Source: Tribonema minus | Taxonomy: Eukaryota; Sar; Xanthophyceae; Tribonematales; Tribonemataceae | Reading direction: 5' to 3' | Length of the DNA: 64,000 bases | Assembly (NCBI GenBank): GCA_017506865.1 | Contig: JAFCMP010000190.1 | Coordinates: 868,001 to 932,000, forward strand | Shown here: positions 11,744 to 64,000 of the stretch, piece after piece | Layout of the letters: each line of letters begins with the position of its first letter | Position numbering within the stretch: the stretch's first letter is position 1 | Made by a program: the position numbers and the translations under genes | The notes under the pieces: generated by a model | What the model saw: the letters and a program-made list of their open reading frames with translations, nothing else | Told to the model about the DNA's origin: nothing | The model's database searches: none

Positions 11744-11762
11744 GCTTCTGCACAGCTCTGCA

Positions 11763-11778
11763 ACCTGCCCCATTGTAC
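11763..11778. repeat. Target-site duplication, right, of the LINE
   Basis: Second copy of ACCTGCCCCATTGTAC, identical to 3284-3299. The bases after it (GTATCTGAGAGAGCACGC) continue the pre-insertion repeat, as seen by comparison with 47476-47500. Confidence 0.85.
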
Positions 11779-12050
11779 ATGTATCTGAGAGAGCACGCAT
11801 GTTCACCTATGAATGTGCTAATACATGTGGTAGCAAGGCTCAAATGATGCACTGTGCTTTGCAGACTTGCAGATTCCTGACGAACGTGCAGCATTGCAGC
11901 AACATTGACTGACTTGCACAGATTGATATACGCTACGAGACACAGTATCTGGCGGCTGAATGAACACCTGCCGTGACAAGCACCGTACTCACACCGGGAT
12001 CCAGTACCTTGCTGAAATCACATGAAAGGTGCTTATGCGTGTATCAACGT

Positions 12051-15974: not shown

Positions 15975-18900
15975 AACTAGGGGGCCTGGATATGACTGGT
16001 GGCTTTGGCGCTCATACTACGCGGCGCGAGAGTGCATCTGTGGACTTGGATCGGCTTGCGGCAGCAGACAGAGTGGGCGTTCAGCACGATGTGGCTCGTG
16101 ATGATGTGAGTACATGCATGATAATGTAGTGCTACCTTGCACTTGCTGGATGTAATAACGCTGTTTGCATGTGGATAGAGAACAACAGTAATTGAAAACA
16201 ACGACGGTATTGTTTGTGCATTCAGCCATTGGTAGCCATTGGTACTGAATATGCCAATCTGTCTGTTCATGCCATGATGCAGGTGCACGATGTCTACAGC
16301 TATGTGCCTGGTGTTGCTCATGGTACCAGCGAGCTTGAAGCGGTGCGCGACTTCTTGGCCAACAATCCGCAGGGCACGTATGCGATTGCGATGCCTACGG
16401 CGACGCAGATGGTCAATGAGTACAGCACGCCATGGCTGTTCACCGCTGCTTTTCCGCACATCTTTCCCTATGGTCGCGGAGATCCCACAAGTCCACGGCT
16501 TCATTCACGTCCGCAGCTCGCCGCAGCGTGCCAGCACCTGGTGCGTTCTGCAATAACAGATGAAAATGGCAATGCGGTCAGCTATCCGTTCGCGCAGGAT
16601 CCGTACGCGCCGTTCATGGCGCTGAGCATGCGCGATCGGCATACCGCCATTGAGCAAGCTAACGCATTCATGCGTCGCAACGCTGAGACTGCAGCTATGT
16701 CCCGAGAACACATGGAACAGGTGTTGCGTGACCCGCAGCAGCGACAGCAATTGCTCAACAGCATCACGCGGTTCACGGCCAACTTCACCGGCTCGCCAGG
16801 CTACTGGCACCTACGCCGGTTGGATCTGGAGGCAAATTGCTACAACTACGGCGTCGGTTCAGCGTTCACGACATTCACGTCTGCGGCAAATCATTGGCAC
16901 GATCTGCAACGTCTGTTGCCTGGTTACACCGAGGGCCAAGTGCAGCGCGTGGAGTTCCGACGTCAGCAGGTGAATTCGAATCCGGCTATCGCGACGTGGT
17001 GGTACGCGGAACGCGCGCAGCGCTGGCATGACATATTCTTCGGTACGCGCTTCTTAAACGCCGTTTGGGACTGGGCGCGCACTGAGTACCAGAGCAGCGG
17101 CGCCGATCACAGTCACTGCATTACGCGAGAGGGCACCGGACCGGAGGGAGGGCTCACCGAAATGGGCGCGGTGGCCATGGAGGGGCACTTCGCACAGGTG
17201 GAGTTGGAGGCGCGGCAGCGTGCAAGAGAGCCGCATAGGCCAGGGCCGCACAGGCACGCGCGTATGAGGACCTGGCACGTATGAGGGACGCAGGGTTAGT
17301 CGCTGAGCAGCGTGTCGTCGACTATCTGACACATCTCGGAGTAACGATGTACAACCGTCAGCCGCTGCGTGAGGGGGAACATGTCGACGACGACAATCAT
17401 CCGTGTGCAGCAGATCTACGACCTGGCGTCTTTGCGTGGGATGATCCAGCTGCGCGACATGCGCGGTATTGTGCGCTCGTCAATGGCTGCCAACGGCACT
17501 ACCACACAGGCTACTGCTTGCGTCCTATCACTGCAGCCATGCGTCGCAGGCAGCCCGACTGGCCTGACATTGTCGATCATCCTGGGCAGTTCTGCCGCTT
17601 TGGGCATCCTCATGCCGCACGTGACAGTGCAACTCTTGAGTATGGCAGGGACAGGAATGGCGATCCTACGGTGACGTTCGTGCCGCCGGTCAACGGCGCA
17701 GATGCAATGATCAATCGTCATGCTACGTGGCAGTTGCTCACTTGGGGAGCCAACGTTGACTGGAGCGCGTTGTTGAGCAGTCGCAGCGCCATGGAGTACG
17801 CTGTGAAGTACGCGTCGAAGGGGGAGACTAGCTCGGAGTTCATGCGCCGTCTGCTGCAAGCGCTCATTCGGGGTGCTCGCATAGATCCTGATGCTGCAGA
17901 GGGACAGCGCGCACAGAGGGGGGACGACGGTCAGGTAAGACAACGTTTACCTCACATGTGTGACATCAGCAAGTACGATATGTATGTACTACGCATATGC
18001 CAACTAACGCATTGCATTTGTGAATCTTTTGTATGCAGAGTGTACCAGGCGTAGCTGCTGCGAATGATGTACAGCGGCAAGAGCATGGCGGTGTTGCTGG
18101 CATGACAGACGAGGTGAGTGTTGTGTGTGTAAAAAGTGATCTTGTATTTTTTTTGCATTTGGCTTTATGTATTGTTCAGTTGTCCACGACTTTGAGTGCG
18201 CTTGTTGTATCATTACTAATAATGTCATGTTGTGCTTCTGTGCATCCAGAGTGCTGCGGCAGCGAGCGGCGCACCTGCTAGGAATGATGCAGAGCGTCAA
18301 CAGCATGGTAGGGTTGCGGGCGTCACCAACATGGTAAGCGTTTTTATGTCAATATGACCTTGCATTTGAGTCATAATATGATTGGATGACGCGTGAGTTG
18401 ATCTGATATTTGTGTGTTTTTTATGCAGAGCTTGGCACAAAGCGATGCAGCAGCCAGGACTGACGCAGAATGGCAACAGCGCAGCCGGGTTGCTGGCATC
18501 ACAGAGCCGGTGAGTTGTATGTTTTTGCCATGAAATTTTTTGATGTATTTCTAGTATGTTGTGATGTACTATAATGGCTTATGACATTTGGTCAAAATAG
18601 TGTTATCTTTCAATGCCTTGTGCTGATAAGCTGGTATTTGTCTTGTTGTACACAGACCTCTCCTGCGCGTGCAGATCCTGGCGTACGTCATGTCCTACAG
18701 CAAATGGCGATTGCGAGTACCACACGACCCGACTTCGGACCTCAGGAGTGCTGCCATGCACTACTCTGTTTGCCCATGGCGGTCAGCACGGTCACTCACG
18801 AGTCTGTCGATCTGCGAGAGGGGGTGCGAGAGCGCTTACGTCACGATGAGCAGCGTCGTGTGGTGGTGCTCCCTGATCTCATCACTATGTATGGGAATCG

Positions 18901-21900
18901 CATGAGCGCAGACTCGTGGTTGGAGTCAATGCCGGATGAAAGAACTCTGCGGACGATGCGCTTCGATGCGCTTGGCCGACGATACTACGTGGGCTTCACC
19001 CGGCAGTCACCCTATCGCTACGGCTTGCGGCATCATGCTCATGCTCCACCGGTACATGCGCCAAGAGATGGGTCTGTTGCGCGGCGCAGAGGCTTCGATG
19101 CATACCCCAACACGTCATCGGATCCGCATGGTCAGAACTACGCGGAACATTGCAGGGAATGCTTGTTGAGGTGGGGGTGCTGGGAGGGTCATCACAGCCG
19201 CGCATGGGCAGGAGAGCCTGGAGTGGAGCCTTTGCAGCAGCAGCTGATCGATGCATGGGAAACCTTGCGACGGCGGTTCGACACTGATGCTAATGCGGCA
19301 CCAGAGCTATGGCAACATCAACGCCGCATGCTTGACCCGCGACCGGACACTGACCGGTACTGCGATGACAACAACCATCGGCTAGATGTTGTGCGCGAGG
19401 AGAGTGCTGTTGCCACCGCACGACGGATCGGTGTCACACATAATGTGGCAGACTACCTCAGCAATCTAGCGGAGGCGGTGGAGTGGGATCAGAATGCAAA
19501 CTGGAGCCAACTTCGCCTCAACTACACTGAGGGGCAGCTGAACGACATCACGACTAACATCGGAGACCGCGCGTGGCTGTTGCAACAGCGGGCGCACGCG
19601 AGCATCGACATCGACTCTGCTAGACCGCGACCACCACTACCTGCGGCGCAGTACGCTGAGCAACGCAATACCATCAACATCGTGCTGGCTCACTTCCTCA
19701 CCACTCAGCGCTGTCTACGTGATGGGCTACCACTGCCGCCGCCGTTGCGCATGTGCATAACTGGCGGCCCTGGTAGCGGCAAGACACACCTGCTGAATGT
19801 GCTGACTGGCGTGTTGCCACCTGGTGCGCTGGCGTTATCAGCGACCACGGGCACGGCTGCAAGCAACATTTTTGCGCCTATGGCACACCGCCGCTTTCAC
19901 ATCACGCCATCCAACCAGTCCACAGTGGCACAACCGGACCTATCTGGAGCGACATTGGCTGCTCTACAGGTACGTAATAATACCATGGAATACCTGCATT
20001 GTTCGCCGCTGCCAGTCGCCGTCCTCAGTCCTGTTATCCTAGTCAGGTTGCAACAGCGCAGCTCCCGTGACCTGTTAGCATTGCATCGATAGTGCAGCTC
20101 CAGATCTGCATGCAAGAAAGAATGGACGTTGAACATTAATCTATGACAATATCATGCGTGCTGTCATCACAGGCTGAGTTCAGGCAGCTCTATGGACACG
20201 CCATCGATGAAGTGAGCATGATGAGCCCGAGCATGCTCGGATTCGTCGTGTCGCGCCTGTCACAAGGGCGGATGGGGGAAGACCTGCGCATGAGAGGACC
20301 GTTAGCGCTGCTCATGCTGTTCGACACTGATCAGCTACCGCCAGTGCGCGCGCAGGGGTTGTGGGAATACCCCACTGACCCTACGGGGACTGCTGGTATG
20401 GGTCATCTCGCGTACAACTCGCCGAACGCGGTTATACAGCTACCAGGCTCTCACCGACATGACGATGCAGCTCTGCTGGCCGCGCTGCATCGCCTGGCAC
20501 GCTGCGAACAGACCGAGGAGGACTATCAGCTGTTCGCTACGCGATTCACGACCACCGTCTCAGCTGCAGACAGGGCGCGCTTTGACAACGAACCCCACTT
20601 CTTCGCGCGCCATGCGGACGCAATGCGCTACAACATCGACCGTCTTGCGTGCCTGCGCGAACAGCGCCACATGTTAGCGCAAATATATGCACATCACAGC
20701 CATCCTGGCAGCGACGCTGGACGTTCGCACGATCAGTTCAGGGGCATGCGCGCGGTCAACAACCTCGCCATTGGTGTGCATACACGTCTCACGATGAACG
20801 TGTGGGTGGAAGCACAGCTCACTAACGGCAGACGTGGGATCATACGCGACATCATTTGGGCGCCTGGCTCAAGACCGCCAGACCTGCCGCGTGCCGTCAT
20901 GATGTACATACCGCAGTACACTGGTCCTTCTTTCTTCACTGAGGAGCAAATCGCACAGGATGAGGATCTGCGTCGAACGGTGCCTATCCCTCCAATGGAA
21001 GTACACCTGGAACACACTTGGCGGCGCACACGCACCGGCGTACCTGTCACTGTGGTGTACGGAGACACTATTCACAGTTGTGAGGGGTCTACGCAGGAGC
21101 TGGCGTACGTGAACATTGGGCCCCGTGAGTTCTCACATGGTATCACCTACACCGGCCTCAGCCGCACTCATCGGCTGAATGACATGCTGCTGGAGCCTTT
21201 CACTTTGGACCGATTCATGTCCTCGCGCAGGGCATTTGACCATCACCCACAGACCAGCGCCCGACGCCGTGCTGACCGTGACCGTCTACATGCTGCACAC
21301 GAGTACACCGCATGGAGTGTGGCGCGGCATTCTTCAGATCGTCCTGCCGTGGAGCGTACGGCTGCAGAACGCATCGACGTGCTGACGCGTGACATCGCTG
21401 CTGCTCTACCGGACGTGGAGGCATTCTACAGCATGCACATCGATGAGGTCCGGGCAGTACTCACCAGAGAGGCAGAGGACGCCAGCGCAGCCGCACAGCG
21501 CCGAGAGGACCAGCGCAGAGTGGCTGCTGTGAATGCACACACGCGCATGACGGAGGACCTGTGGGCAAATCGCGCAGCTGCACGGAGTACAGTGATCGAA
21601 CAGCAGCAACGGGAGGCAGATGAGGCAATCAGCAGAGCGCAGGAACACGCTGATGAGGTGAGTCGTACTGTAATCTACAAGTAGTTATTGGCCCTGTGAG
21701 CCAGCAGCATGCTTTCTTCTTGCCAATAGAGCACATGCTTTAATTGAATATCAGCCAATATTGTCTCTTGTATGTTTCCATAAATAACCCATTTGTGTGT
21801 GTCTGTGCAGTGGGCGGAGGCGGAGCCGGAAAACGCTGCTGAACAACGCATCATATTTCGACAACAACAGCTACAGCAGCAACAGCAGCAGCGACAACGT

Positions 21901-22590
21901 GAACATCAACTGGCGCAGGCACAGCAGCAACGGCAAGAGCAGCAGCTTCAGGCACAACGGCTACAGCAACAACGCTTGCAGGAGCCACAGCAGCAGCAGC
22001 AGCAGCTACAGCCACAGCTGCAGCAACCGCAGGAAGAGGAGCCGCAGTCATGCGCAGTATGTTTCGAACTGATTGTCACGCTTGCAAGTGTTCAGAGCGA
22101 TTGCGGACATGGAAACCAGTTATGTGCTCCATGTGCGTACCAGCTCATCGCCATTCATGGCCACACTATCTGCCCATTGTGCCGCGCATTCATGACTTTG
22201 CGTTCAACGACAGCTGAATGGCACGCAAGTGCGGGACGAAGCCAGACCTATTCATGGGTTTTCGAACCGCTCATTGCTGACGCACTTGGAAGGCAGAATG
22301 AGTTTGCGTTCGAACGCCCACCTGGATGGGATGCAATAGTGAATGCATATGCTCTCGCATTTGCTGAGCATAACGTTGACTGGGACACTCTAGAACGTGA
22401 TCATCAGCCAGGTCAGCCACCTCACATCACTGCAGATCAGCAGAATCAGCTCATTGACATGAGCTCATTGATGCTGGCCGCACTTGGTGCATATGGTCAG
22501 GCGGTGCGTACTCGAGCGCAGACAGGCCAGGGAGCGGTGGAAAGCCTGCAGCATTACATAGAAGTCGCTACAAACCTGTACATTAATTGA
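15890..22590 (+). CDS. Helitron Rep-helicase protein with C-terminal RING finger (8 exons)
   Basis: Exons: 15890-16105 (tentative), 16226-17934, 18039-18113, 18250-18333, 18429-18509, 18656-19969, 20173-21657, 21811-22590. All junctions are GT-AG and phase 0. The Rep exon has FPHIFPYGRGDP, ANHWHDL, the HUH-type CQRHYHTGYC (about 17490) and EYAVKYASK with the two Tyr (about 17800). One base seems lost between 17236 and 17284, where the frame changes. The helicase has Walker A GGPGSGKTH (about 19766), Walker B IDEVSMM (about 20205) and a late YTGLSRTHR. The last exon opens with a Gln-rich stretch and then a RING finger: CAVC, CGHGNQLCAPC, CPLC (about 22050-22180). The protein would nick, unwind and re-ligate the element during rolling-circle transposition; the RING suggests ubiquitin ligase activity. 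Confidence 0.8.
18039..18509 (+). other. Array of three homologous in-frame mini-exons
   Basis: Mini-exons of 75, 84 and 81 bp (18039-18113, 18250-18333, 18429-18509) sit between the Rep and helicase exons. Each starts AG-(T/C) after a CAG acceptor, ends at a GTGAGT or GTAAGC donor, is phase 0 at both ends, and encodes the same pattern: S...A-A/R-x-D...Q...(V)AG-x-T. The end of the tentative first exon (about 16035-16105, with LAAADRV.VQHDVA) matches the same pattern. They arose by tandem exon duplication, and any of them can be skipped without a frame change. Confidence 0.75.
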
Positions 22591-48944: not shown

Positions 48945-50457
48945 GAAGGGGGTTGACAGGGACGATCTATGCCGCCAGGTACTTGAGGCCACCAGCGAAA
49001 ACACGGTCGCCGGTTTCAATAACAACCTGGCGTCCGTGTTCGGCGCCCTCAAGAGGAGCGGAGCGGAGCGATACAGGCCAGATGCCATGGACATTGCGGC
49101 TTTACGCGCCTACTTGCCTGCGGCAGACCTGGCTTGGCTCGACACATCTGGGCAAGCGCTGACATACTCGGTCAACAAGTTCATCGACACATTCAGGGAA
49201 GCGTTTCTCACCACACGCAGGCGGTTGCGCGCGGATGTCACCGTCAGCCGCGCGCTGGACAGGGGAGGCCTCAAAGCCAAGACAGCCGCAGGTCGCCTCC
49301 CAGACTTCGAAAGTGACGGTCTGCGCGATATGATGCGGGCCCTCCGCAAGCAGATATGGAGCCGCGTGTGGCAGTCAATCATCGCCCCCTGGCTGCGCGC
49401 GCACAGCATACCCCAGGAGGCGCAGTCGTTCCTGATGACAAACGCCATAGCAGCAGACTCTGAGGAGGGAAATATCGTCAAATTTGCAGACAGCAAGGGT
49501 GTCACAAAGTATGATGCAGAGAGAGTTCAGCTCCTGTTGATGCTTCACTTATCGTGCTTGAGGTCACAGGTGTGGCGCGACTCGATAGTGAGCGAGTACT
49601 CCCTTGACAAACGCGACGGCAAGCAGTTTTACACTCTCCACATGACGCGCGCATTCAAAACCGCTGCCTGCAAAGATGACGGGCTCCCGCACCTCGCCAA
49701 GTGGGAGCCGTCGGAGACAGAGAGCATGCTAGTGCACTGTGCGCTGTTGCTGTGCCGGCCCCTTCTCGCCGTGGGAGCAAAACGGACAGCACACATGTTT
49801 CTCGACGCCGCCGGTGCTCCCGTCGCCCAGCGCTGGATAGAGAACAAGATTGCACAGGTGGGGGCGGATTTTATGGGGGTACCGAGGCTTGGGCCGCACA
49901 CGCTCCGCACCTGTTGGATTTTGTGGATGGTAAATCAGGGACTGGTGGCTGAGGCAGACTTTGACAGCCTGGCTGCATATGTGCAAGTCTCTAGGATGAC
50001 TATGCTGGAGAGTTATGTCACACCCAGCAGCACAGGCCCTGCACAGCGAGTTGGCCAGCATCTGAGGGATGGAGGGCTCAACTCTCACGTGCCTCCTCCT
50101 TCAGAAGCTGCAAAGGGTGCGGACGATTGCTTTGAGCAGGATGAGGAGTGCGACACTTCCATCGCAGACACGGCGTCCACAGCTGCTGCGTTGGACACGA
50201 CAGACGAGATGGACATAGACGGTGGGGGGGCGGCAAAGCCATACGGCAAGGCTCTGCGCACAAAACGCAATACATACATTGACAACATCACGCTTGCGGT
50301 TGGGACATACAATGGCGACGCGAAGCAAGCGTTCGATGCCTTGGTCTCAAAGCGCAAGCGCGGCCAGCTGAGCGCCCAGGAGCAGTGGTTCCGGGAGGAC
50401 GTGACTTTCTTCAGAGACGTAGACCTCCCTGCGTTCAAGAAGATGTGCACAAAGTGA
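48945..50457 (+). mobile_element. Crypton-like element (tyrosine-recombinase DNA transposon)
   Basis: The left border is set by the end of similarity between the two PAS repeat blocks. The right border is unknown and is given as the end of the recombinase frame. There is no RT nearby, so a DIRS-type retroelement is unlikely. Cryptons lack terminal inverted repeats, which fits what is seen. Confidence 0.55.
49036..50457 (+). CDS. Tyrosine recombinase of a Crypton-like element
   Basis: 473 codons from the first Met. The frame is open leftwards to the element border at 48946 without another Met, so the true start may be spliced on or lost. The N-terminal about 150 residues are helical and basic (core-binding type). 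The catalytic layout is Arg in CLRSQVWRDS (about 180), H-x-x-R in PHTLRTCWILW (about 292) and Tyr in TMLESYVTPS (about 330), giving the R...HxxR...Y set of tyrosine recombinases. After it comes an acidic linker (DEMDIDGGG) and a basic end (KRKRGQLSAQEQWF). It would cut and rejoin DNA through a 3'-phosphotyrosine link. It has the right length for Crypton proteins. Confidence 0.7.
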   Translation: MFGALKRSGAERYRPDAMDIAALRAYLPAADLAWLDTSGQALTYSVNKFIDTFREAFLTTRRRLRADVTVSRALDRGGLKAKTAAGRLPDFESDGLRDMMRALRKQIWSRVWQSIIAPWLRAHSIPQEAQSFLMTNAIAADSEEGNIVKFADSKGVTKYDAERVQLLLMLHLSCLRSQVWRDSIVSEYSLDKRDGKQFYTLHMTRAFKTAACKDDGLPHLAKWEPSETESMLVHCALLLCRPLLAVGAKRTAHMFLDAAGAPVAQRWIENKIAQVGADFMGVPRLGPHTLRTCWILWMVNQGLVAEADFDSLAAYVQVSRMTMLESYVTPSSTGPAQRVGQHLRDGGLNSHVPPPSEAAKGADDCFEQDEECDTSIADTASTAAALDTTDEMDIDGGGAAKPYGKALRTKRNTYIDNITLAVGTYNGDAKQAFDALVSKRKRGQLSAQEQWFREDVTFFRDVDLPAFKKMCTK

Positions 50458-50719: not shown

Positions 50720-52324
50720 TCAGAATGGCGTGTACCGTGCACGTTTGCGGCATAGCGGTGTGTTGCTTGGTACACCATGATCCTTGTGGCGAGCACAGGT
50801 CAGGAAAAATCTGCATACCTTGAAGCTCCAGTTTGTGCGCCCTCCGCAATTTGCGACGATGCACTTTTGCTCACATGGCTTGCATCGAGAATCTTGTGGG
50901 ACGCGCTCTCCTTGTGCCAGCCAGGTTTCACCAGCACAGCCTTGCGAGCCTTTCCGTGGGCAGGACACACTGGCATAATGTTCTGGACATGCCTTGCTGC
51001 CCTGAGAATATGTCTCATGACACACCTTGTACTTTCTGCATGCTTCACACTTGACGTGACTGTGCGGAACATGCTCATCAGCGGTAAAGCATACAATTTC
51101 GCCACACTCTGGCTGTGAACATATTGCTGAAGTGTAATGCTCTGGGCAGCCATATTCATCTCCGCTCCAAACAACACCACACTCTACACACAAGCGGCAC
51201 ATGTCACAAGTATCTGTCTTGCACACCCGTTCACCCTGCCTAAACCAGAAAGTTTCGCCACAATTGTCAGTAGGACAATGAACCTCTTTAAAGTGTTCAG
51301 CGCACTTGCCCTTCTCATATCCTGGAATTACACCACACACGGGGCATGGTGGCTTTCGCATTTGACGTCTCTTGTGTCTGAGCGAGTCGCAGTGAACTCA
51401 TTAGATTACTGTTTTCCACTTCCACTTCCTCATCTTCGCCTGCCCCATCCCCACCTTCGCCTGCCCCATCCCCACCTTTGCCTGCCCCGTCCCCACCCTT
51501 GACTGCCCCGTCCGCACCCTTGACTGCCCCGTCCGCACCATTGCCTGCCCCATCCGCACCTTTGCCTGCCCCATCCGCACCTTTGCCTGCCCCGATATGT
51601 GTGATGCAGTCCTTACCAATCGGCCCTATTGTTTGCCCAGCTGTGCCGTGTATCATCACGTATACTACTGTAATTGTTTGAGAACACTGGCACCTGAGCT
51701 GCTGAAAACTTGTGTTGTCATCTGCAATCGCAACCGTCTTCCACTCAAGCCGTGCACCGCTCCATCTGGGGGCGATCGAGAACGCTGTGACAATACGTTG
51801 CAGGCGCATATGCTTGTACGCTGCAGGTACGTCGTAACCGCCACTTTTCGAAGTATTGTCACTTTCACCTGGTGACATCCACACAAGGCGACCGTCATGC
51901 ATGTCATGCCCTGCGTACACGAGTTCAAGTCTGACTGTCTCCTACCTGAGGCAGCTCTCCTCTGCATTAATTCACTGTATGCCTGCTCCAACTCTTGTGA
52001 ATGCCAGCATACTTGCTCCGCCTTACTACACGGCTTGAATTGTGCAAGCAGTCTTGAATTTTTGCGGCCCCATAGTTCAGAGGAGCTCCGTGTGTGATAG
52101 TTGCTGATCATGTGTAGAATGACCCACTTGAACATAATGCAAGTACGCAACTTTCCTTTTACGACTACATCAACTAGCCCCAGATCTTGCGCTTCCTGCC
52201 TATACCATACCTGCCAACTACCATCAGTGGGTAAAGGTGTCAGTTCAACAGAAAAGGGAGTCACATGTTGGTCTTCATAGCTGGTGTTTGTATATAAGTG
52301 GCGTTGTTGGCACAGTGTACACAT
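50720..52324 (-). CDS. Cysteine-rich protein with repeated C-x(3,4)-CGE zinc motifs
   Basis: Three overlapping open stretches on the minus strand (52324-51665, 51920-51315, 51361-50720) seem to be parts of one gene whose joints I cannot fix. The first has MCTLCQQRH, a C-x2-C knuckle, and FKWVILHMISNYH. The second has LVWMSPGE, CQCSQTITVVYVMIHGTAG...IGKDCI, a zinc-binding layout, then a 7-residue repeat (GAGKGAD type) and a Glu-rich stretch. The third has at least three units of the form C-x(3,4)-CGE-x5-(G/D)E-x-V plus CPEHY and further Cys pairs, about 30 Cys in all. The family is not recognised. It may be an accessory gene of the Crypton-like element or an independent gene. A nucleic-acid or zinc-binding role is an inference from composition. 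Confidence 0.5.
51434..51595 (-). repeat. 21-bp tandem repeat coding GAGKGAD heptads
   Basis: About eight units of CCTGCCCC(A/G)TCC(C/G)CACC-type sequence. On the minus strand they encode G-A-G/V-K/E/N-G-A/G-D, an in-frame coding minisatellite. The length is a multiple of three throughout, which argues that the frame is or was translated. Confidence 0.7.
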
Positions 52325-53129
52325 CGCTGTTTACCGCACAGTGCTCATCGTGGTGTGTGGGGTCAACACATTTAATTGGCGCCATATCTATATGCAGCAC
52401 TCCACCACCCCACCTGAATGTCAGTAGTCACAGATAATAATCATTGTCTGCGTAACACAAATAGGTGTTGTAAGTAAGTTATTAAACATATGTAGGATGT
52501 ACGTCAAGGAGGCCGGTGCAAAGCCAGCAGCAGCAGAGGTGCTCTGCATGCACAAAGTTCAACAGCTCAAAATGCTAATTGAACCTGCGCCTTCGATCTT
52601 GAGCCATGCTTTCATTTACAGTTTATGAATACTTTCATGACAGGACCAGACACAGGAACCTTCAATGAATATAGTTGACATGTGTTGAGCTTTCACCATC
52701 CTTGGCAGGCTGATGTTCTGTTGACAGTTGAGCAAGAGCTGTACAAGTTTGGCGCCAGTCCATGCCCTGCACATGGCACACGTCATAACCAGGAAGCCGG
52801 TTGCAGGAAGATGAATGAGAGAGTACACAAAGCATTGACAACAAGCAAGATACCAACACCAGCAATAACATCTGTAAGGAATGGTGCATGTGCCCTTATA
52901 TTCCATCATGCAAGTATGTGTGTAGCTTGAGCATAAAGTGTGTGTGCGAATATCAGCACGTCGGCCGCACGGCAGTGTGACGCTCCTTGTGGCGAGCTCA
53001 ATTATAATGGCGCCATTCCATGCCCTGCACGTGGCAAACGCGTTGTGTTGATGAAATTGCTACAGATGTCGGCGTATGTGCCTGCTGACAGACTTGGCTG
53101 CGGTGGCACGGTGGTGAAGCGGCTTACCT
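52325..53129 (+). other. No intact gene; two fragments with the CGE-type cysteine motif
   Basis: At about 52725-52790 the plus strand encodes EQELYKFGASPCPAHGTR, and at about 52975-53045 it encodes CDAPCGELNYNGAIPCPARG. The pair shares nucleotide similarity (GGCGCCA-TCCATGCCCTGCAC) and resembles the C-x3-CGE units of the neighbouring minus-strand gene. They look like decayed pieces of a related gene. Confidence 0.45.
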
Positions 53130-53527
53130 TGTGATGCTGTCATGAATGCAAACAAGCAAGCTGGAAGAGCAAAACAAGTAGACACGCTTCAGAGAACTCA
53201 AATGAAATGTTATGCGAAAGGAAACGCGATGCGCTTACCGGATATCTTATTCTGCTGCTGAGAGACGGAAGGCTTGGGGCTGGGCGACGGCAGGCGCAGC
53301 AAGGTTCGGGCTTGCCGCGTGCAAGGGAGGTTCTTATACTGTGCATACTACTTTGATGCGCCCTTTGGCATGTGACCCAACTAGTTGCACCTGCCTTCAA
53401 CTAAGGTCAGGCCAGCTCTCAATCACATGTCAAGGTCTACACCGACTACACAGGTCTACTGAGACCTGTGCCAACCTGTGAGGTGTAACTGCCTGTAACT
53501 GTTTGAATACACCCCCAAGCCGTATCA
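53130..53527 (-). repeat. 3' LTR of the right Ty3/gypsy copy
   Basis: About 398 bp, TG...CA ends (TGTGATGCTGTCAT ... CCGTATCA), collinear with the LTR at 1786-2187. Its end next to the element body is followed on the plus strand by GATCCCCCTTCTTTGCT, which on the minus strand is a purine tract ending at the LTR. Confidence 0.8.
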
Positions 53528-53544
53528 GATCCCCCTTCTTTGCT
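53528..53544 (-). other. Polypurine tract
   Basis: On the minus strand AGCAAAGAAGGGGGATC lies directly before the 3' LTR, as expected for the plus-strand primer of an LTR element. It is absent beside the 5' LTR at 2188, as expected. Confidence 0.7.
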
Positions 53545-53769
53545 GAGCATCGCCCTCGATGCGGACTTGAACTCGAAGCAGCAGATCGCGGTCCCTAGTG
53601 TAGTTGCAGCATGCTCGCACTAAGTGCACTACTAAGCATGGAGGCCAATATATAACTGGTTGGAAACCCCATTAAAAACCTGGGAGGCAAACCTGCTAGT
53701 CAGGGAAATCCTCTCTGCAGGAAAAGGGAGTCGCCGGCCTCAGCTTTGACTCAACTTGAGTCCCCACAA

Positions 53770-56700
53770 CTACTTCGCACTCTCCTCTGAGGATATACTG
53801 CGAGCGGCGAGCACGTTCCATGATGAGTATGGGCTGTCTTTTGGCGTGCGGTAGTCACCCGGACGTAAACGCATCCGCCTGACGGTCTTCTCGCCGTCGA
53901 ACAGCACATCAAACGTGAACTGCGACCTGGCAGGGTAAAACTCGCCTAGGACGCCGCGGCTCCAGCCTGTTGGAAAGTGATACCAGATCACTTCACCCTC
54001 AAAACCTGATCCGAAATCAGATGGCAGTTTGGGCAGCCTTACCAGCGAGATCTGCGGCTGAGCAGAATCTTGGGCTGAGCTTGCCTCAGAACTAGTTTGG
54101 GAAGATGGCAGACCTCGCGTGACCTGAGAGTTGGGACTTGCACTACTCGCGCTGTCCGGCGCGCTTTGCGCCTGCAACCTCTTGGCTTTGTCACGCACTG
54201 CCTCTGCCAACTGTATGGCAGACTTGACCTGTGTACGGGTCATCTGTTCCCACTCACCATCCTCATATCTGATCCTCCAGTATGGTGACACAAAGTTCTT
54301 AACGGCCCCCCACACGTAAGTGATCGGGCCGCCCACTACCGTTCTGTGCTCCCTGACCAGCGCCGTGCCGATGGGATAGAGTTGCAGCGCGCTCTCTCGG
54401 CGCATGCCAGCATCCTCCTTAGGTGTGGGCCTGATGGCATATGCCGGCAACCTTCCTTCGTTGCGCAGCTCATAGAGCGCGTGAAAAGCGTCTAAGGTCC
54501 ATGGCGTCACTTCTTGCAGCATGTCATCCTCTGACACCCACGCATGTGACTTGCCATCTATGGACTGCCATTTGTACTGCCACGAGCCATTGGGGCCCGC
54601 TTGGCGGTCCAGAACTCTGTATAACTTCTCACCATCTGCTAGCTCCTCCACTTGTCGGGGGCTCAGCATGGCGTGCACACCTGGCTCCAACATGGCACTA
54701 GGCCTCATGTGGAAGGGCTTCATGTTCTCAACATGAGCTGTGGTGTGTCTAACTCTTCTGCCCATCATCCTGCAGATGAATGAGAGACCTGATTCGCCTG
54801 TGCGAGCCTCGATTTGCCAAGGCCCCACATACCTGGCATCAAGAGCAGCCGACCTGTCTCTTTGCCTGGGCAGCCGTATCATGACAGTCACCGACGGCGA
54901 ACTTCACCGCGCGCTTAATAGCTTCATTGCGCTTGGTGATCTTCTGGGCGCGCACTTGCAGCGCCTTTGACACCACTTTGTCTGCAAGCTCAAGCATATC
55001 TAGCTTGTGCTCAATCTCCTCGTGCAGGTCCAACTTCCTGCTGCCATCCTCGTGCATAAACGCATCATGTGGCAGTGAAGCCTCCCGACCGTACACACAG
55101 AAAAAGGGTGTTAAACCTGTTTCATCTCGGGGAGTTGTCCTCAACACAAACTGTACGAGCTCTAAGCCTTCGTGCCAGTTTGTCTGCTGAGCGCTGACCC
55201 AAGATGCTAGTGCCTTCTTAGCACGACCATTTGCATGTTCTGCCACACCATTGGTCTGTGGGTGGTATGCACTGGTCTCTATGCGTTTAACTTTAAACGC
55301 TCTGCAAAGGTCACTGACCACATTGCCAAGGAAGACTTTGCCCTTGTCTGAGCATAGTTCCTCCACTAATGCTCCAACCTCTAGGAACACTGTCATGAGG
55401 TGCGGGGTTACATCTTTAGTACCCTGGCCATGCATAGCGGCTAGCCATACAAAACCGGACCTCGTCTCCACAATAGTCAGAACATATTTATGCCCCGCCG
55501 CGGACTGGATACCAGGCTCTGTGATATCAATGTTGAGACGTTGCCACATGCGCACTGGCTCAGCCAACCACTGCTTATATTGAGTGGAGCTGGCGCGCTT
55601 GCGTTCTAGGCACGTCATACAACTCTGCACGTACGTTCGTATGTCTGCGCCCATACCAGGCCAGAAATACCTCTCGAATATACGCGTGTGCGTAGCGCCT
55701 ATGCCGCAATGCATAGCGCTCGCGTCATCATGCCCTAAACGCATGACTAGGGTTCGTAGCACCACTGGCACGACCCACTGCAACAACACCATACCTCTCT
55801 TGGGGTGGCTTGTTGAACTGTGCACTAAGAGGCCATCTTCCTCCACGGTATACTGCTCTCTCTGTGCTAAGACGTGAGCGGCTAGCTCCGCGCCTTCGGG
55901 TATGTCACCCTCAATGAGCATCTTGCTCACTGCTCGACAGAAGCCGTCCGCTTTCTGAACTTCAAGAAATGCGGCTCTGCTGAGCATTGCTGGCGTGGCA
56001 GGCGAGTCTCCCTCGGCCACCCGTTTCAGCAACTGCACTACTTCTGGCCTTGGCAGCGTCTTCTTGCGCTTGCCTAAAACAGCTTCGCCATCCGGTGGCT
56101 CGTCTGCCTCATCTGCATCAGCAGCAGCTTCTACCTCTGGAATCTCTCCTTCTTCCAATGAGTCTGCCGCCGGCTGAGCCGTGGTGACGCTGCACTTGGC
56201 CCTCTTTGAGCTGATGCTGCGTCGCCTGTCGCATGCGATCTGCCTTAAGAGTCGCTGCGCTTGGGAATGCTCCCACGAGCCGGTGTACTTATTGACTGGC
56301 TCTGCGTACGCTGTGTTGATCTCAACTTCATCAACCTCTGCTTCCTCCACCGTGGAGTCATCTAGCCTTCTGTCCAACAACTGTGCTAGCTCCACAGCTG
56401 TCAGAGCGGCTAACCTAGCGGCCACCGCGCCTGATATGGCGACGGCCTCGTTGAACTTGAACGCTGGCCCGTAACGTGCGTCCGCCGTGTACCCACGACA
56501 GCCGTTCACGTCGGCCACCTTGTGCGTTCTCGTGGCCTCGTCCGCAAAGCGCACACCCGACGGCGGTGCGTCCATGCTCGGGACTGCGTCTGGCCACTGT
56601 TCGTCTGCTGGCTCCGTAGAGCGCTCAGCATCTAACTCTGCCTGCTGTGGCAGCCTGGATGGGGCATCAGCATTGGCATTCCTTTTGCCAGGCCTGTGCT

Positions 56701-59150
56701 GAATGGTAACGTCATACTCCTGTATGCGCATGGCCCATCTTAGTAGCTTGCCGTTGTAGTCTTGCAACGTCAACAGCCACCTGAGCGCAGCGGCATCTGT
56801 GACCACTGTAACGGGGTTACCCCAAATGTAAGGCCTGAAGTGGTTGAGCGCCAGCACTACTGCCAGACACTCTACTGCCGTCGCTCCTAACTTCGCGTCG
56901 GGTTCAGAGTTCAGCTTGCTGAAGTAGCCAACGACTACTTCTCTGACCTCCTCGCCTTCAGCTATGCGGCGCCTGCCCGTGTGAGCATATGGCTGTCCCG
57001 CTGTTGCCCTTTCGACCTCACTCACAGGTCTGAATTGTGTAAGCACACCTGCCGTCGCCGTCTTGGAGGCGTCGGTGTACAATACGAAAGGCAAACTGAA
57101 ATCTGGGTGCATCACTGTGCGACTGTCGCACATGGCACTCTTCAGCCGCTTGAAAGCCCGCTCTTGCGCAGACCCCCAAACCATGACTGCTTTGTTCTTG
57201 GTCAGGGCTACTATAGGCTCTGATATCGCCCCAAAGTCGGGTACATATCGCCTGTAATAGTTAAACACTCCCATAACCACTTGTACCAACTGCTTGTCTG
57301 GTACCCCGCCTTTCAGTGGGGGGCTCATGTCAAGCATGGCCTTGAACTTGTCAGGGTCTGGTCTTGTTCCAGCGGCGCCAACTATATGGCCTAGGAACTT
57401 GACTTCAGCTTGAAATAGCTGACACTTTGGGCGAGATACACTCATGCCCGCCGCGCCTATGCGGCCAAGAACATCATCTAACTGCTCGATGTGCTCCTCG
57501 ATGTCCGTGCCATACACCAACACGTCATCTATGTACACTAGCGCGTGGGAGCCTAAGGCATCTCCCAGCACTTGGTGCATCAATCTCGTGAACTGCGCTG
57601 GCAAGTTCACCAGCCCGAATGGCGCCACCTTGTAGTGCCACAACGAGCCGTCTGGGACTCTGAAGGCCGTCTTGGCCTTAGCCGTCTTCGCCAGCGGGAT
57701 CTGATGGTAACCCGCTGCCAGATCTAACGAAGATAAAATCCTGGCACCTTGCACAGCCCGCATCATGTCATCCATGTTGCCTAAGCCATGACTATCACGC
57801 TTCGTGACCGCATTCAACTTCCTGAAGTCTATGCAGAAGCGGATCTTGTCGCCTTGAACCACTAGTACTGGGTTGCTTGCCCATGCACTAGCTGATGGCT
57901 CAATCTGTTGGCGCTTTGCCATCATCTGAATCTGTTTCATGATGTACTCGGCTTCTTTGAAAGCCCAATGGCGTGCCTTGTCCGCCACCGGCTCGGCCGT
58001 CTGAGTGTCAACATCAATCTCAAAATGCTGGGTGACTCGAGGGTTTTTAGGGTCCTTAGCAAAGACATTCCTGTGCTTTTTTAGCATGTCAAGTGCTTTT
58101 CTTTTTAACAGTACCCCATCTTTCCCCCTTCCTTGCAAATGAGGCGCAAGCCTGCCATCTTTCACAAGGATTTCCTCCAGCTCTGCATCTGTGCAGTTCT
58201 CTAGCTGGTCATTGTGGCGCTGGCTGAGGTCTGCCAGCCGTTGCACTTCTTGTGCAACCTCTTTGGCAGTCTTGCCTATGCTAGCAGCTAATTCTGCCAC
58301 TAACTTAGCATTTTCAGAGTGCCTTTTGGCTGCTATTACTAGCAGTTTGGCTTCTAGAGCCTGCTGAGTAGCTGTCTGCACTTCTAGCAGATCATCAGCC
58401 TTAATTGGAGTCACTTTTCCCCAATACGTGTTGCGGCGCACGTAAACCGGGTACATTGAAGTGTTGCTCAATGTAGCGTATATCGTGCCGCTGGCATTTA
58501 CGGTGAGAGCGGTGATATTTGCCTTAACACCTTTGCCTCTCATCATTTCTGTAGTCACTGTCTCTTCTGGTATGAGCAATGCCTCATAGGGCTGCACGCG
58601 CTTTGGCTTTGGTAGCAGCGTGAGTTCCACAATCGTCTCCGACGATGGTGCCAGTACAGTGTTATATGCCATCCTAGCTGAGCACTGCTGAGGCTTGTCT
58701 GGTGCCTCAGTGCTCTCAGCGCTGCCATTGCCCTTGCAACTGGCTAGTGCTGCCGCACGCGCGTTCGCGTTGTCTGCGCGATTCTTGTCGTGCATGGGGC
58801 GTATGGCCACACCTGTTAGTCCCCCTGGGAAGAAGGCTGGGCTACCGCCGTGATACGAGATGACTGAGCCATGCGGGGCAAAGAAATCCGTACCTAAGAG
58901 CACGTCCATGGGTGCGTTCACCACATAGAACTTGTGCAAGAACATCTTGTTCTTAAACCGCAGCCATGCATTGACCACACCACTGATCTGCAGCGACGTC
59001 TTGCCGTCTGCCAAGAGGATCTCAGTGTAGTCACCTTGCTGAGGTGTACATACATAGCTGTTGGGGAGCTTGTCTGCAATGCGCTTGCCCATGATGGTTA
59101 CGGTCGCACCGCAGTCTACCATGGCGCGCACATAGAGTTCTTTGGGCGTC
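53770..59150 (-). CDS. pol region of the right Ty3/gypsy copy (protease, RT, RNase H, integrase)
   Basis: Retropepsin with VDCGAT and LLGTDF; RT with FCIDFRKLN, LDLAAGYHQI and VYIDDVLVYG; RNase H with LYTDAS and a GKLLRWAMRIQEYD-type connection; integrase with an H...C-x2-C zinc end (about 55600-55720), DITEPG, SDKG and a late Glu-bearing TNGVAEHANG segment. The C-terminal GPWQI element lies near 54810-54840, followed by a Ser-rich tail. This order is diagnostic for Ty3/gypsy. No clear chromodomain was recognised in the tail. Confidence 0.85.
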
Positions 59151-59969
59151 TGAGAGTTGCTTTGTACGCGTAACGACGCGGACACAAACATCTGCCCTGG
59201 AGGTACAACACCGGCTACTGGGCGTATGTACTCCACTGGAGCCTCCGACTTGGAGCGCTCTACCGAGCTAGGCTCAGGGGACCCTACTGCAAGGTCTACA
59301 TGAGGTAACTTGACTGGTTCCCTCGGTTTTGTGATCTCTTCTGTGAGATTCTTAATTGTCTCTGCCACACTCACTGGTGTGGCTGTGTCTAACTTGCTGA
59401 CACCTGGCACATGGTCTAATATGCCTAGAGACTGAGCATCAAGGCCAGCGCGCCTGAGCGCTGCCTTCAACTCACCTGGGGCAAGGCGCGGGTCTGTACC
59501 GCCGCCGAGCTTCTTGCGTGCCGCTGCGGCCGCAATGGGTGGAGCACTGATTTCTGTGTCAATGTCCATGTCGTCTGCGTCACTGCAAACGCTCATAACT
59601 GACTGTGAGTCCCACTCAGAGTCAGACCCTGAGTCAGAGTCATCGACTTCCACGATGTCAGCCATGCCGGGCTGCACCACAGCCAAGTCTACCTCTGGCT
59701 CTTCCCATGCACTGCGCATCGGAATTATGGGTACCTCTGCATACCCTGCATCATGCGCCTTTGCATGTATGCTACGCGCCACTGCTGCTGAGCAGTGTGC
59801 ACTTGACGTGGGCGCTGCATGTACCGCGGTAGCGGCCTGCACCAGCGAACCACTCTGACCAGCCAACCAAGACGGGGGCGGGCAGTCAACTGAATGCCTC
59901 AACGTAGAGTCTGACCTACGCGGCAAACGTACCTGTTGTTCTGGCAGTGTGCACAGGCCTGAGGCCTCA

Positions 59970-60880
59970 ATTGCCACGAACAAGTGAAATGCCATCTCTG
60001 GGATGAACAAGTCTGCAATGTAACGCCGTACATCACTACTGCATGCACTCGCTGGTAATTCATGATGATAAGTCATGAGCACTGCCATTTCCGCAAGCGA
60101 CAGCAAGCGGGCAGATGCCACTGGACCAGCGTCTTTTGCATGTGCAACATAACTCGCAGTGGGCCTACCAGGCAGTCTGCGCACTGGGCTAGGCAACAAG
60201 CCATCAGCATCCAAAACACCAGGGTGCTGAGCACTGCGTGGTTGCAAGAAGAATGTGCGTTCGGGGCAGCGCAAGCGAGAGCGAACAGATGTGGGTCTGC
60301 TTTGTAAACGCTTGGTATTTATTACCGCACCGAACCTCTGGAGCGCCTCACGTGAGGCCACCCCTGCTGGTACTATGACAATGTACACCCTCTGCCTCCT
60401 GCAAGGTACTTCAAACTCAGAAGCCCTTAACTTGGCAATGTACAGCATGTAACCAGCCAACTTGAGAATGCGTACTGCGCGTGCAAACGCGCGTGACACT
60501 AGCACTCCTGGCACATTCTCATACAACACCACCCGAAGCTTGGCCCGCACGATGAGCCGTGCGGCATGGACCGTGCACTCGGCAGCTTCGCCCTCGACCT
60601 TCTTGCCCTCCGCAGAAAAATCTGTGCAGGGCGGCGAGATGGTGGTGACGTCAGGTTTCTCGTCGATGAGACGTGCAACAACCTTCGCATCAGTGATGCA
60701 TGCAGTGAGCGTGGGCACTTCTAGATGAACTTCATGCAGAGCCTCAATTGCCTTGACGTCTTTGTCAACTGCGAGCACCGTGCGTGTTACAAAACCTGCT
60801 CTGGAGGTCAACTTACCCCCAGCTATGGCGCCTCCTAGCGCCCCACAGCAGACAGACGCGTGTTTGATAACTCTGGGTGG
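59970..60880 (-). CDS. C5 cytosine DNA methyltransferase domain within the retroelement polyprotein
   Basis: This region between gag and protease carries the ordered motifs of C5 cytosine methyltransferases. Motif I is ASVCCGALGGAIAG (about 60845), motif IV PPCTDFS with the Pro-Cys pair (about 60635), motif VI YENVPG (about 60515), motif VIII RRQRVYIV (about 60390), and a motif IX-like RLLSLAEMAVLMTYHHELP (about 60080). A C-terminal helix region (FIPEMAFHLFVAIEAS) follows. It methylates cytosine in DNA in its known relatives. Retroelements bearing such domains have been reported from dinoflagellates and charophyte algae. Its position here, fused in frame downstream of a zinc-finger gag end, suggests it is made as part of the polyprotein. 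Self-methylation of new copies is a reasonable but unproven role. Confidence 0.85.
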
Positions 60881-61079
60881 TGGCTCTGGCCCACCCTCAA
60901 TTGCCGCCATCTGCGCGCGCAAAGAGACATCGTAAACAGCGTCAGTGGCATGCTCAGCTACCTGTGCTGAACGTGCATCTGCTCTAACTGCACCAGGCAA
61001 TTCACTGATCGCTGGTGCTGAACTTGCAGTAGGCAAGTCACTTTCTAACAAGGCAGCAGACAACTGCAAGTGTGATTCA

Positions 61080-63768
61080 CCTTGGCGGTGCTTTTCTGCC
61101 ATCCTCTTTCGGTGCGCAATGCACTGAGGGCAGGTAGTCTTGTGCCGCATGAGTGCGTCCCAGTCTCCCTGGTCCACTCTGCAGCCAAGACACTTGAAGT
61201 TGCTCTTGGGCTTGGCTCCGCCGCCGCCGTTACCGCCTGTAGAGCTAGCCTTGCCCTGCGGCGCGCGGTCGCTGACTCCAAGCTGGCGACGCTCGTTAGC
61301 GCTCAGCCCCGCCAACACAGCGCGAGCAGCCGAAAGCTTATTCTTCTTTTTATAGCGATGGTCGTTACTGACCACGCTCCACCCATCCTTGGCAGGGCGC
61401 TTGCCTGTGTCAGAGTAGGGGGGGGTTGAGATGTGTGCCGCGGCCATTGCAGACACAACATTTCGAGTCTCGCGCTCGTCAATAGGCGCTGCCTGCCACT
61501 TTTGCTGGGCAGTTGCCACGACCTTGGGAAAAGCGGTGTTCTTTAGATCCCAGGTCTCATACATGCCGTTTACTTCTTGACGGCAGCATAATGGCAGTTC
61601 ATGAACGAACTTCATACGAACAATTTGCTGGTTGTCCGCGCAGCCGGCGTCGTGCGCGGCTGCAACTACCTCCCTGCCCCACACTTCGGGGCTGGTACCG
61701 GAGGTACGCGTGAGTTCATGATACTTTTGAAGTGCTATTTGCCTGGCAGATGTGCTATCGTACGCTGCCGTAAGGCATTGCACCATCTGCTCATAAGACA
61801 AATCACTAAACGCACGAGTTTCTAGCATTCCCGTGCGCTCATTGGTGACTGCGCTGGTCAGATCAGCGTACTGACTCTTGGTCAGACTCTGCAACAGCGC
61901 TTCTGAGTAGGCCGACTTGGGCACGCCACGCGTGTCGCAGCTACGCTCAAAAGCTCTAATGGAAGCTTCAAGCCTGCCTACTTGCGTTACAATGACGACG
62001 CCAGTGCCGCCGAAACCCCTCAAGTCAACTTTGGGTTTCCGCACCGTCATGGCAACTGAGGAGTACGAGGGTTCTACTGACCCCGCAGTCCTAATGCTCT
62101 CACCTAGAGCCGATGCGCTGGTGGCTACGCCGGCCACTGCGCCATCTTCACGCGGACTCGCAGCTGCGCCGGCTGCGTCGTCGTCCGACGTGTCGGAGTG
62201 CCCGTCAGTGTTGAGGAACGGGTGCGTCACCAAGCTGCGCGGGTAAGTGTCCGCAGCTAGGTGCGCCTCCTCGGTGACCAGAGGCGTGTTCTCGAACTCC
62301 CTTAGCATTCGCCAGAGTTCCGCCTCCTCACCGTCGCCTGTGCCGAAGGCGAAGCGATGCCAACTATTGGACCGCTTACGGTGTTCACCTATGGTCAGCA
62401 GCTCGCCGAACTGGCTAGCTTTGAAGTCATGACCACGTTTTTCCAGAAGTGCAACATTATGCTTGCGCACCTCTTCGGCCTGCTCCGCAGCGAACGTCCG
62501 CGCCATCGGCAGCAGTGAGTTCTTCACCATGTTCTTGCTCTCACTGGGAGCTCTGGTGACGCGAAGCTGGAGCTCGCCAAGGCGTTCGTAAAGGGCACGC
62601 TCGTGAACTTCGGCGAACGTTGCAGCCGTTTTGGCGGCCTTGGCAGCTCGCTTATGTGCCTCGACGCGAGCTTCGATGCCCTCACGCCACTGGTCATAAG
62701 CCTCATCTGTGCCCTCAGGATCAAAGGGCACACCACCCTCATCACCAGATGACTCAGAAGACTCGAGCAGTTGCCTAACTGCCCTCCGTCGCTCTGCCGC
62801 TTGTCGCTCAACTGGCTTTTGCGGTATGACGGGCGCGCTACGTGGCACAACTGGCGCACTTTGCACGACTGGCACGCTACGTGGCACAACTGGCACACGC
62901 CGCGCCTTACCACTTGCACCCCGACGCGGCTGCGTCACAGGCGATTTATCTGAGGCTTTAGGGGCCCTCGCTGGTGCAGTATAGTATGTGGGAGCCACTA
63001 GCCTAGCTGATGGCTTGGAGCTCTGAGGCGTCGGAGCCGCCGGTGCTACTTCAGGCGCCGCAACTGGGACCCGTGCACCGCGCGTAACCGACGTCTTGGC
63101 CGGCTGACTGCGCGCGACCTTAGGTGAGGCCACCGCGGGCGCAACCAGTGCTGCAACTGGCACTGTGGACTTCGCAGGTGCTGGCGCCGCAGACTTCGCG
63201 GGCGCTGCCGGCACAGCTGGCGCGGCTACCGGCACAACTGGCGCGGTTGTTGCAGCTGCACGCGGTGTCTTGCGTGGGCTTTTCGTTGGTGCGAGTTTTT
63301 CTCAACAGCTGCACGTGCAAAAGCTTCTTCGCCTTCTGCTACCTGGGCTTCGCTAAGCATAATGCCCATTGCTGCAAGCTGTTCTCTTTTCTGCCTCAAA
63401 CGTAACTGCCTTGCCACTATGGCTTCGGCTTCTGAGCCGCCACCGCCGGGCTCGTCGCTGGACTCAGCGAAATTACGTATAAAAGGAGGTGCGGCACCAG
63501 TGACTACTGATTCTGTGGACCGTACCGAGGCAGACGTGTCGGGCGCGCTGGCACCGACCTGGCTGGGTCTTGCGGACGCTGCCGCGGGCCGGGGAGGGGG
63601 GCGTGACGGCTTGTCACCCGAGCTTGGTGCGGGGCGCGTAGCGGAGCGCTGACCGCCCTTGTTGCTCTTAGCAGCAGTGCTGCCAGCAGGCCTAGCACCG
63701 CCACTAACACCTCCGCTGCGGCTTGACCCACTCGTTGGCTTCTTGGAGCCATGGTCAGTCTTGACCAT
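61080..63768 (-). CDS. gag region of the right Ty3/gypsy copy
   Basis: A Ser/Pro/Ala-rich N-terminal part (62700-63768) with PVVPRS-type repeats and an AEEVRK-type basic helix is followed by a capsid-like helical region (about 61500-62080). A C-x2-C...H-x4-C-x2-C knuckle cluster (about 61120-61190) fits a nucleocapsid role. The start at 63768 is supported by alignment with the left copy's gag start at about 866. Read in the minus direction, it leads into the methyltransferase region. Confidence 0.7.
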
Positions 63769-64000
63769 TTATGGTGTATCCTGCACACGATTCACGCGCA
63801 TGAAGCTGAGTGCGACGACAAAACCATGATTTTAAATTGTCAGCGCACGAGCCGTCTATGCCCCGCACGCCTCTGCACGAGGTCTGATGCTACTAGGGCA
63901 CTCTGAACTGCAAGCCAGCCAGTTTGACATAGCAGTTGTACAGATCGACCGCGTTGTCAATTCTGCAACACAATTGCGGCCGTACAATCATGAAGCAAAA
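63769..64000 (-). other. Leader of the right Ty3/gypsy copy
   Basis: Aligns with 867-1090 of the left copy (shared GTGTATCCTGCACACG, GCGCATGAAGCTGAGT, GCCCCGCACGCC-like blocks and a final CACAATTGCGGCC-like block). Untranslated 5' region; the 5' LTR lies outside the window. Confidence 0.7.

Follow-up and report, generated by a model that had tools for sequence, protein, structure and literature searches.

A Ty3/gypsy retrotransposon of Tribonema with a C5 cytosine methyltransferase domain in its polyprotein and a possible role in marking new element copies

Why would a retrotransposon encode an enzyme that methylates cytosines? The question is raised by a stretch of 64,000 nucleotides in a 158-Mb Tribonema assembly (G000:C190:868001-932000; hereafter the window, whose positions count from its first base), which holds on its minus strand a Ty3/gypsy long terminal repeat (LTR) retrotransposon of 12,053 bp with the 5' LTR lying past the window end. 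A preliminary description of this DNA had claimed that the element carries its own C5 cytosine methyltransferase, placed between gag and protease, and this arrangement was borne out by a PF00145 match, by ordered motifs and by a Ty3/gypsy domain order. We give about even odds (0.5) to the reading that this is a young element whose Gag-Pol polyprotein contains a C5 methyltransferase that marks new complementary DNA (cDNA).

The assignment to Ty3/gypsy follows from a reverse transcriptase (RT) and an RNase H nearest to those of Ty3 and from an integrase located 3' of RNase H; among the 21 PDB matches of the RT, the yeast Ty3 enzyme was the top one (E 1e-55). The LTRs are identical at 412/412 positions, which suggests a recent insertion, and each is bordered on its outer side by GGTGG, a 5-bp target duplication. 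With the boundary set by this duplication the LTR reads GATAC...TTCA and lacks TG...CA ends, which are not universal among Ty3/gypsy families. A candidate primer-binding stretch, TGGCACCCGAAGACAG, lies three bases after the 5' LTR. The preliminary description had also called the element nearly whole; the element is longer than the segment assigned to it (53130-64000), and the window copy is broken into three frames that overlap one another (180, 2820 and 377 aa). A copy from the same family on contig C64 is open throughout as one frame of 3376 aa. Single-sequence structure predictions were of low confidence, with pLDDT values of 33 for the window methyltransferase and 39 for the 377-aa frame.

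The methyltransferase domain of the window element matched PF00145 with E 1.2e-16 (61.5 bits, cut-off 22) and scored 41.5 bits with the NCBIfam dcm model, under the cut-off of 100.65 of that model. It presents in order what we take to be motif I, motif IV with Pro-Cys (PPC), motif VI (ENV) and motif VIII (RxR), which places it in PF00145, and an X-like motif (Table 1). When 20 element-borne methyltransferases of this genome were compared (16-36% identity between groups), the catalytic Cys and ENV were each present in 19/20 and the RxR of motif VIII in 20/20, with the full PPC in 12/20 and kept in the window family. A profile built from 13 element rows was invariant at the catalytic Cys, ENV and the two motif VIII arginines, among other positions.

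Searched against the PDB, this 13-row profile matched DNMT2 (E 2.8e-27), HaeIII (1.9e-20), HhaI (2.2e-20) and DNMT1 (6.3e-18), and with lower scores entries whose codes we presume to denote enzymes of ZMET2 (4e-11), DIM2 (1e-7) and DNMT5 (9e-6) type. A DNMT3 type was rejected, with DRM2 at E 0.83 and no DNMT3 among the best 60 of 61 PDB matches (E<=10). The window domain alone gave weak matches, with 3g7u at the top (E 5e-4). In a tree of 37 rows covering motifs I-VIII, all 20 element enzymes fell on one side of a weak branch (support 61/67). DNMT2 identity was rejected because the host and human DNMT2 form a starred branch of their own (100/100), and DNMT1 identity because human DNMT1 is placed elsewhere; RFTS, CXXC and BAH, the N-terminal domains of DNMT1, were not reported in the Pfam scan of the polyprotein pieces. 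By path, the nearest non-element rows are M.HindV-like bacterial enzymes, the joining branches being weak. Judged from its sequence, the enzyme is a compact C5 cytosine methyltransferase of the bacterial/DNMT1/DNMT2 type and not of the DNMT3 type. Profile search and tree both group the domain with true C5 methyltransferases rather than with unrelated methyltransferase folds, an outcome in line with the preliminary description.

The domain is also widespread in the genome. An own-genome search with the window RT listed 48 places, of which two are parts of the same copy, giving a window family of at least 47 copies at RT identity of 91% or more (counts by hand, to be read as lower bounds); the remaining listed places were 64-72% alike to the window RT. 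The corresponding PF00145 search yielded 123 scored matches from 378 candidates, and dozens of copies on different contigs led us to reject a lone copy. The RT lay downstream of the methyltransferase and in the same orientation in all 20 seven-kb copies that were opened, these having been chosen by methyltransferase match, with frames broken in some. A methyltransferase was likewise present in 6/6 elements chosen by RT or RNase H (L060-L062, L063, L064, and L065 with L073), at full length in four and degraded in two (L063 and L064). Locus L065 was considered as a Ty3 element without methyltransferase and rejected, as the next 1.25 kb holds the domain behind RNase H. A second and older window-family copy (L011, C190:861000-870000) spans the left edge of the window, with an RT 93% alike and a methyltransferase spread over two frames. 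Methyltransferase and RT queries found no relatives in the viral contigs, nor did a scan of the genome contigs collection; these searches used exact-peptide patterns that distant relatives would escape.

Some PF00145 matches lie outside elements. Locus L004 resembles the host DNMT2, a placement supported by the 37-row tree, and L001, L002 (C223) and L003 (C181) are separate, stand-alone C5 enzymes of another type, in frames of 367-390 aa, that look by eye like endogenised virus genes; L001 adjoins a kinase-like frame, and L001 and L002 group with two phage enzymes in the tree.

The elements are far from being a single family. In an RT tree that included yeast Ty3 they formed four starred lineages, I (7 rows), II (3), III (3) and IV (3), at support of 100/99 or better, with a program warning of long branches and an unsure branching order among the four. 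By RT identity, which is 23-36% between lineages and 26-37% between each row and Ty3, the lineages are about as far apart from one another as from yeast Ty3. Each RT lineage corresponds to one methyltransferase clade (I 89/86, III 90/92, II and IV starred), so by the evidence of the two trees the association of enzyme and element is old within each lineage. The methyltransferases of I, III and IV were joined at support 81/86, and the profiles of lineages I and II aligned over 303 columns (E 6.5e-21). Of the 15 rows that make up lineages I, III and IV, 12 carry an EG-x-x-A signature after motif IV, against 0/5 in lineage II and 2/17 among other rows, namely HindV and Rhizobium; its absence from lineage II makes us lean towards a separate history for that methyltransferase. 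The module may have reached the four lineages by spreading among them from one origin, or it may have been captured several times.

The position of the enzyme in the polyprotein also varies. Lineage I has the order gag, methyltransferase, protease, RT. In lineages II and III the methyltransferase lies upstream of the RT, and a protease-like stretch precedes it by eye; Pfam found no protease upstream of the methyltransferase in these two lineages, and the lineage I protease profile aligned with the other lineages at E 0.006 (II), 0.65 (III) and 0.02 (IV), with probabilities of 6% or less. In lineage IV the methyltransferase sits behind RNase H (L071 on C509, L072 on C112, L065/L073 on C224) and is followed by an integrase in L071 (rve E 5.2e-16) and L072 (1.3e-13), the examined stretch of L073 ending ahead of that point. 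A search with the L072 enzyme found at least eight further places with a near-whole domain at 45-46% identity, including L071 and L073. Two positions of the methyltransferase in the polyprotein are thus firm; a third is put forward tentatively, since the protease of lineages II and III was recognised by eye from its motifs.

The domain is mostly under purifying selection. Nei-Gojobori ratios of nonsynonymous to synonymous substitution (dN/dS), calculated for the methyltransferase domain in 22 pairs, were 0.07-0.25 in 16 pairs and below 1 in 21, with synonymous sites close to saturation in distant pairs. Low values were obtained for window/L038 (0.163, p 1e-7), L032/L038 (0.108), L053/L049 (0.167), L041/L046 (0.175), L041/L050 (0.072), L022/L031 (0.236) and L060/L062 (0.191); difference tests on four pairs gave p 1e-7 to 6e-36. 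Pooled over the window family, dN/dS was 0.224 for the methyltransferase and 0.176 for the RT. The survey of other copies proposed in the preliminary description thus found a domain that is conserved by selection in many copies and is not a single-copy feature.

Selection extends to a degraded version of the domain, which in one subfamily lacks the catalytic motif. Lineage III includes one type (L064, on C533) with TRC in motif IV and another (L063, on C214) in which about 25 residues are gone at motif IV, including the catalytic Cys, and ENV reads ENA. Among the matches listed for the L064 domain, counted by hand, 21 places cover the whole domain with an identity of at least 96% and another 6 are at 59%; 28 places are of the L063 type, their match starting at residue 99 or 103. 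In 27 of these 28 a partner piece ends at residue 74, and the loss of motif IV is therefore common to the L063 subfamily; four of the listed L063-type places belong to copies open as one frame of 3452-3455 aa. Between L063 and L064, dN/dS was 0.177 for the domain (Fisher p 1e-29) and 0.033 for the RT. As its motifs read, the lineage III domain can be retained without normal catalysis, so that, at least in this lineage, it probably has a further role in binding. One L064-type copy lies near the window, at C190:957663-958622.

What the intact enzyme could do for the element is suggested by its location. As part of Gag-Pol, the methyltransferase would be packaged in the particle together with RT and integrase. 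There it could mark freshly made double-stranded cDNA, with CpG as the probable target, before the element integrates or as it does so. Insertions would then arrive already marked and would not be read as foreign or unmarked DNA. The same benefit would account for the module occurring in four Ty3 lineages at different places of the polyprotein. Substitutions between near copies, counted in the coding regions of methyltransferase and RT, give a hint in the same direction: C-to-T changes were found at 25/1213 CpG sites but at 25/3508 of the remaining cytosines (odds ratio 2.9, p 2e-4), with equal transversions (4/1213 and 12/3508). Counts over whole 7-kb copies were dropped, as the transversion rates of the window family were high there, probably in poorly alignable parts. 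Such a C-to-T excess would be expected if the copies were CpG-methylated, by whichever enzyme. A precedent is offered by SymbioDIRS-Dnmt3 domains, for which de Mendoza et al. 2018 (PMC5890265) report de novo CpG methylation in yeast and suggest marking of cDNA.

Several observations weigh against cDNA marking as the function of the domain. Motif I is one residue longer in the window family (CCGALGG) than in other groups (CCGxGG or alike), and the extra residue is common to 7/7 window-family copies with a readable motif I. In motif IV, 6/20 element rows are without the Pro-Cys. Six of the 22 dN/dS values exceed 0.255 (window/L060 0.26, L060/L061 0.30, window/L021 0.37, L071/L072 0.48, L021/L028 0.61, and L036/L048 1.0 on 8 changes only), and the methyltransferase was less constrained than the RT in 5 of 9 pairs with both ratios. 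The degraded lineage III domain is still selected, something that catalysis alone would not explain. The CpG signal counts sites rather than independent events and could be caused by host enzymes, and CpG observed/expected is 0.82 both in the element and in its surroundings. In published work, KnitGypsy-Dnmt3 and SymbioLINE-Dnmt gave no activity in yeast, a result termed inconclusive there (PMC5890265), and an opinion paper proposes a role in antiviral defence (PMC6338049).

The strongest competitor, unlikely as we judge it, holds that the domain is kept mainly for DNA binding or structure in the particle or integration complex, catalysis being secondary or lost and the protein a pseudo-enzyme in some lineages. 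The TRC of the L064 type and the constrained L063 type without motif IV, in single frames of up to 3455 aa, speak for it, as do the SSC, TLC or SNC found at motif IV in four element rows outside lineage III; the prevalence of PPC, catalytic Cys and ENV across the element rows, and the retained PPC of the window family, speak against it. A quite different target, which we regard as decidedly unlikely, would be other DNA, either host chromatin near insertions or the DNA of infecting viruses, with the host or the element profiting from it. This has been suggested for retroelement methylases (PMC6338049). The virus-like loci with their own C5 enzyme recognised by eye (L001-L003) would fit it, whereas a location within Gag-Pol favours action in the particle.

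It is improbable that the enzyme methylates RNA in the manner of DNMT2, with the element genomic RNA or the tRNA primer as substrate: the top solved structure for the 13-row profile is indeed the tRNA methyltransferase DNMT2/TRDMT1, but the DNMT2 branch stands apart from the element enzymes, and the outsiders nearest to them by path are DNA methyltransferases of the HindV type. An assembly chimera, or an accident confined to a single copy, has a negligible probability: dozens of copies are spread over different contigs, those that were opened share the domain order, and several have frames of more than 3000 aa. Marking of new cDNA by a packaged methyltransferase is the reading we prefer. A broader version, which we advance tentatively and think somewhat more likely wrong than right, sees a travelling module that was passed between, or captured by, at least four distant Ty3 lineages, with Ty3 elements lacking a methyltransferase perhaps rare and with a dead, conserved partner in one lineage (DNMT3L-like in kind, not descent); self-marking and engagement of chromatin or DNA would then be general in the Ty3 life cycle of this host.

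Among known systems, the closest counterpart is KnitGypsy-Dnmt3 of Klebsormidium nitens, a gypsy element of LTR type that, like the window family, encodes a C5 methyltransferase within its polyprotein, is present in multiple copies and is under purifying selection (Ka/Ks below 0.2; de Mendoza et al. 2018, PMC5890265). That system is described as a single gypsy family with a DNMT3-type enzyme and DIRS-like repeat structure (PMC5890265), whereas the Tribonema enzymes are not DNMT3, are found in four or more Ty3 lineages and occupy two or more insertion positions, and the window element has ordinary LTRs. Symbiodinium, with hundreds of element-borne methyltransferases in coexisting domain orders, resembles Tribonema, with its more than 100 matches and likewise mixed orders; however, SymbioDIRS-Dnmt3 is a DIRS element (tyrosine recombinase) and SymbioLINE-Dnmt a long interspersed nuclear element (LINE), neither being Ty3/gypsy, and the SymbioLINE enzymes are of an orphan type that can be set beside those of Tribonema by description only (PMC5890265). 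DIRS elements with a Dam-like adenine methyltransferase are also retroelement-borne cases, with an unrelated enzyme and a different element class (PMC5890265, PMC6338049). The M.HindV-like bacterial enzymes (plasmid AP026749.1; Rhizobium plasmid NZ_CP140867.1; contig MT837117.1) are of similar compact size and about 24-32% identical to the element enzymes.

Ty3/gypsy and DIRS elements carrying Dam or Dcm are stated, without data, to occur in stramenopiles among others in the accessible text of PMC6338049; as that text names stramenopiles, a stramenopile host of a methylase-carrying element is not new. As far as our searches of the open-access literature tell, what is new is that Ty3/gypsy elements of one genome carry non-DNMT3 enzymes, and do so in four lineages, at two or more positions and with a fixed, catalytically degraded version. 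The earlier detailed cases come from dinoflagellates and a charophyte, and Tribonema probably adds a host group as well as a different enzyme type. Natural pairs of canonical and degraded domains in one genome make a benefit to the element testable, by comparing young with old copies and active with dead ones.

The genome itself points to a host that is neither a dinoflagellate nor a charophyte, as the preliminary description had left conceivable. It contains 92 light-harvesting matches, and one antenna protein had 9vfj chains as its top PDB matches, followed by ACPI and CAC chains, presumably cryptophyte antenna proteins. An 18S fragment (L018) matches RF01960, and a heterokont probe, which we take to be HETERO01, has one matching site in L018 and one in L019. 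The host is photosynthetic, belongs to the red lineage and is probably a stramenopile. Compared with known sequences, the 18S of L018 (short contig C300) seems to miss single bases; these are possible sequencing errors and counsel caution over frame breaks.

Table 1 Features of the window element and its methyltransferase (window positions unless a contig is given).
Feature	Position	Strand	Remarks
Target-site duplication GGTGG	53110..53114		partner outside 5' LTR, beyond window
3' LTR, 412 bp	53115..53526	-	
Polypurine tract AAAGAAGGGGGATCT (element strand)	53527..53541	-	adjoins 3' LTR; recognised by eye
377-aa frame	53770..54903	-	integrase end and C-terminal region; no Pfam match
Chromodomain-like stretch	54472-54627	-	in 377-aa frame; by eye only
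Main frame, 2820 aa	54839..63301	-	gag-methyltransferase-protease-RT-RNase H-integrase
Integrase core (rve)	55259..55543	-	E 1.4e-6, 29 bits, under Pfam cut-off 32.6
Integrase zinc-binding H2C2	55595..55771	-	E 2.3e-17
RNase H	56714..57178	-	PF17917 E 4.1e-23; PF17919 E 4.5e-22
RT	57380..57850	-	Pfam E 6.9e-28; YIDD within 57512-57541
Retropepsin-like protease	58880..59131	-	PF13975 E 4.5e-5, 24.4 bits, under cut-off 28.2
Protease active site	59099-59122	-	
C5 cytosine methyltransferase domain, 378 aa	59759..60892	-	catalytic Cys codon 60626-60628
Motif X-like	59990-60019	-	
Motif VIII	60383-60400	-	
Motif VI	60506-60520	-	ENV
Motif IV	60614-60634	-	PPC
Motif I	60815-60853	-	
Gag-type C2HC zinc finger	61130..61192	-	directly upstream of methyltransferase; motif by eye
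180-aa frame, Met start	63226..63768	-	gag start by position; no Pfam match
5' LTR, 412 bp	C190:932756-933167		756-1167 bases beyond window end

The window holds further frames of mobile-element type and a repeat. LINE-like frames occupy 3378-11806, with an RT match just below the Pfam cut-off and an OTU-like stretch recognised by eye, and 16196-22590 contains a Helitron-like N-terminal domain (E 2.7e-21) with helicase-like frames, seen by eye, and a RING-finger frame. A 503-aa frame at 48946-50457 is tyrosine-recombinase-like by eye and has no Pfam match, and a tandem array of eight 21-bp units (51427-51593) adjoins the element.

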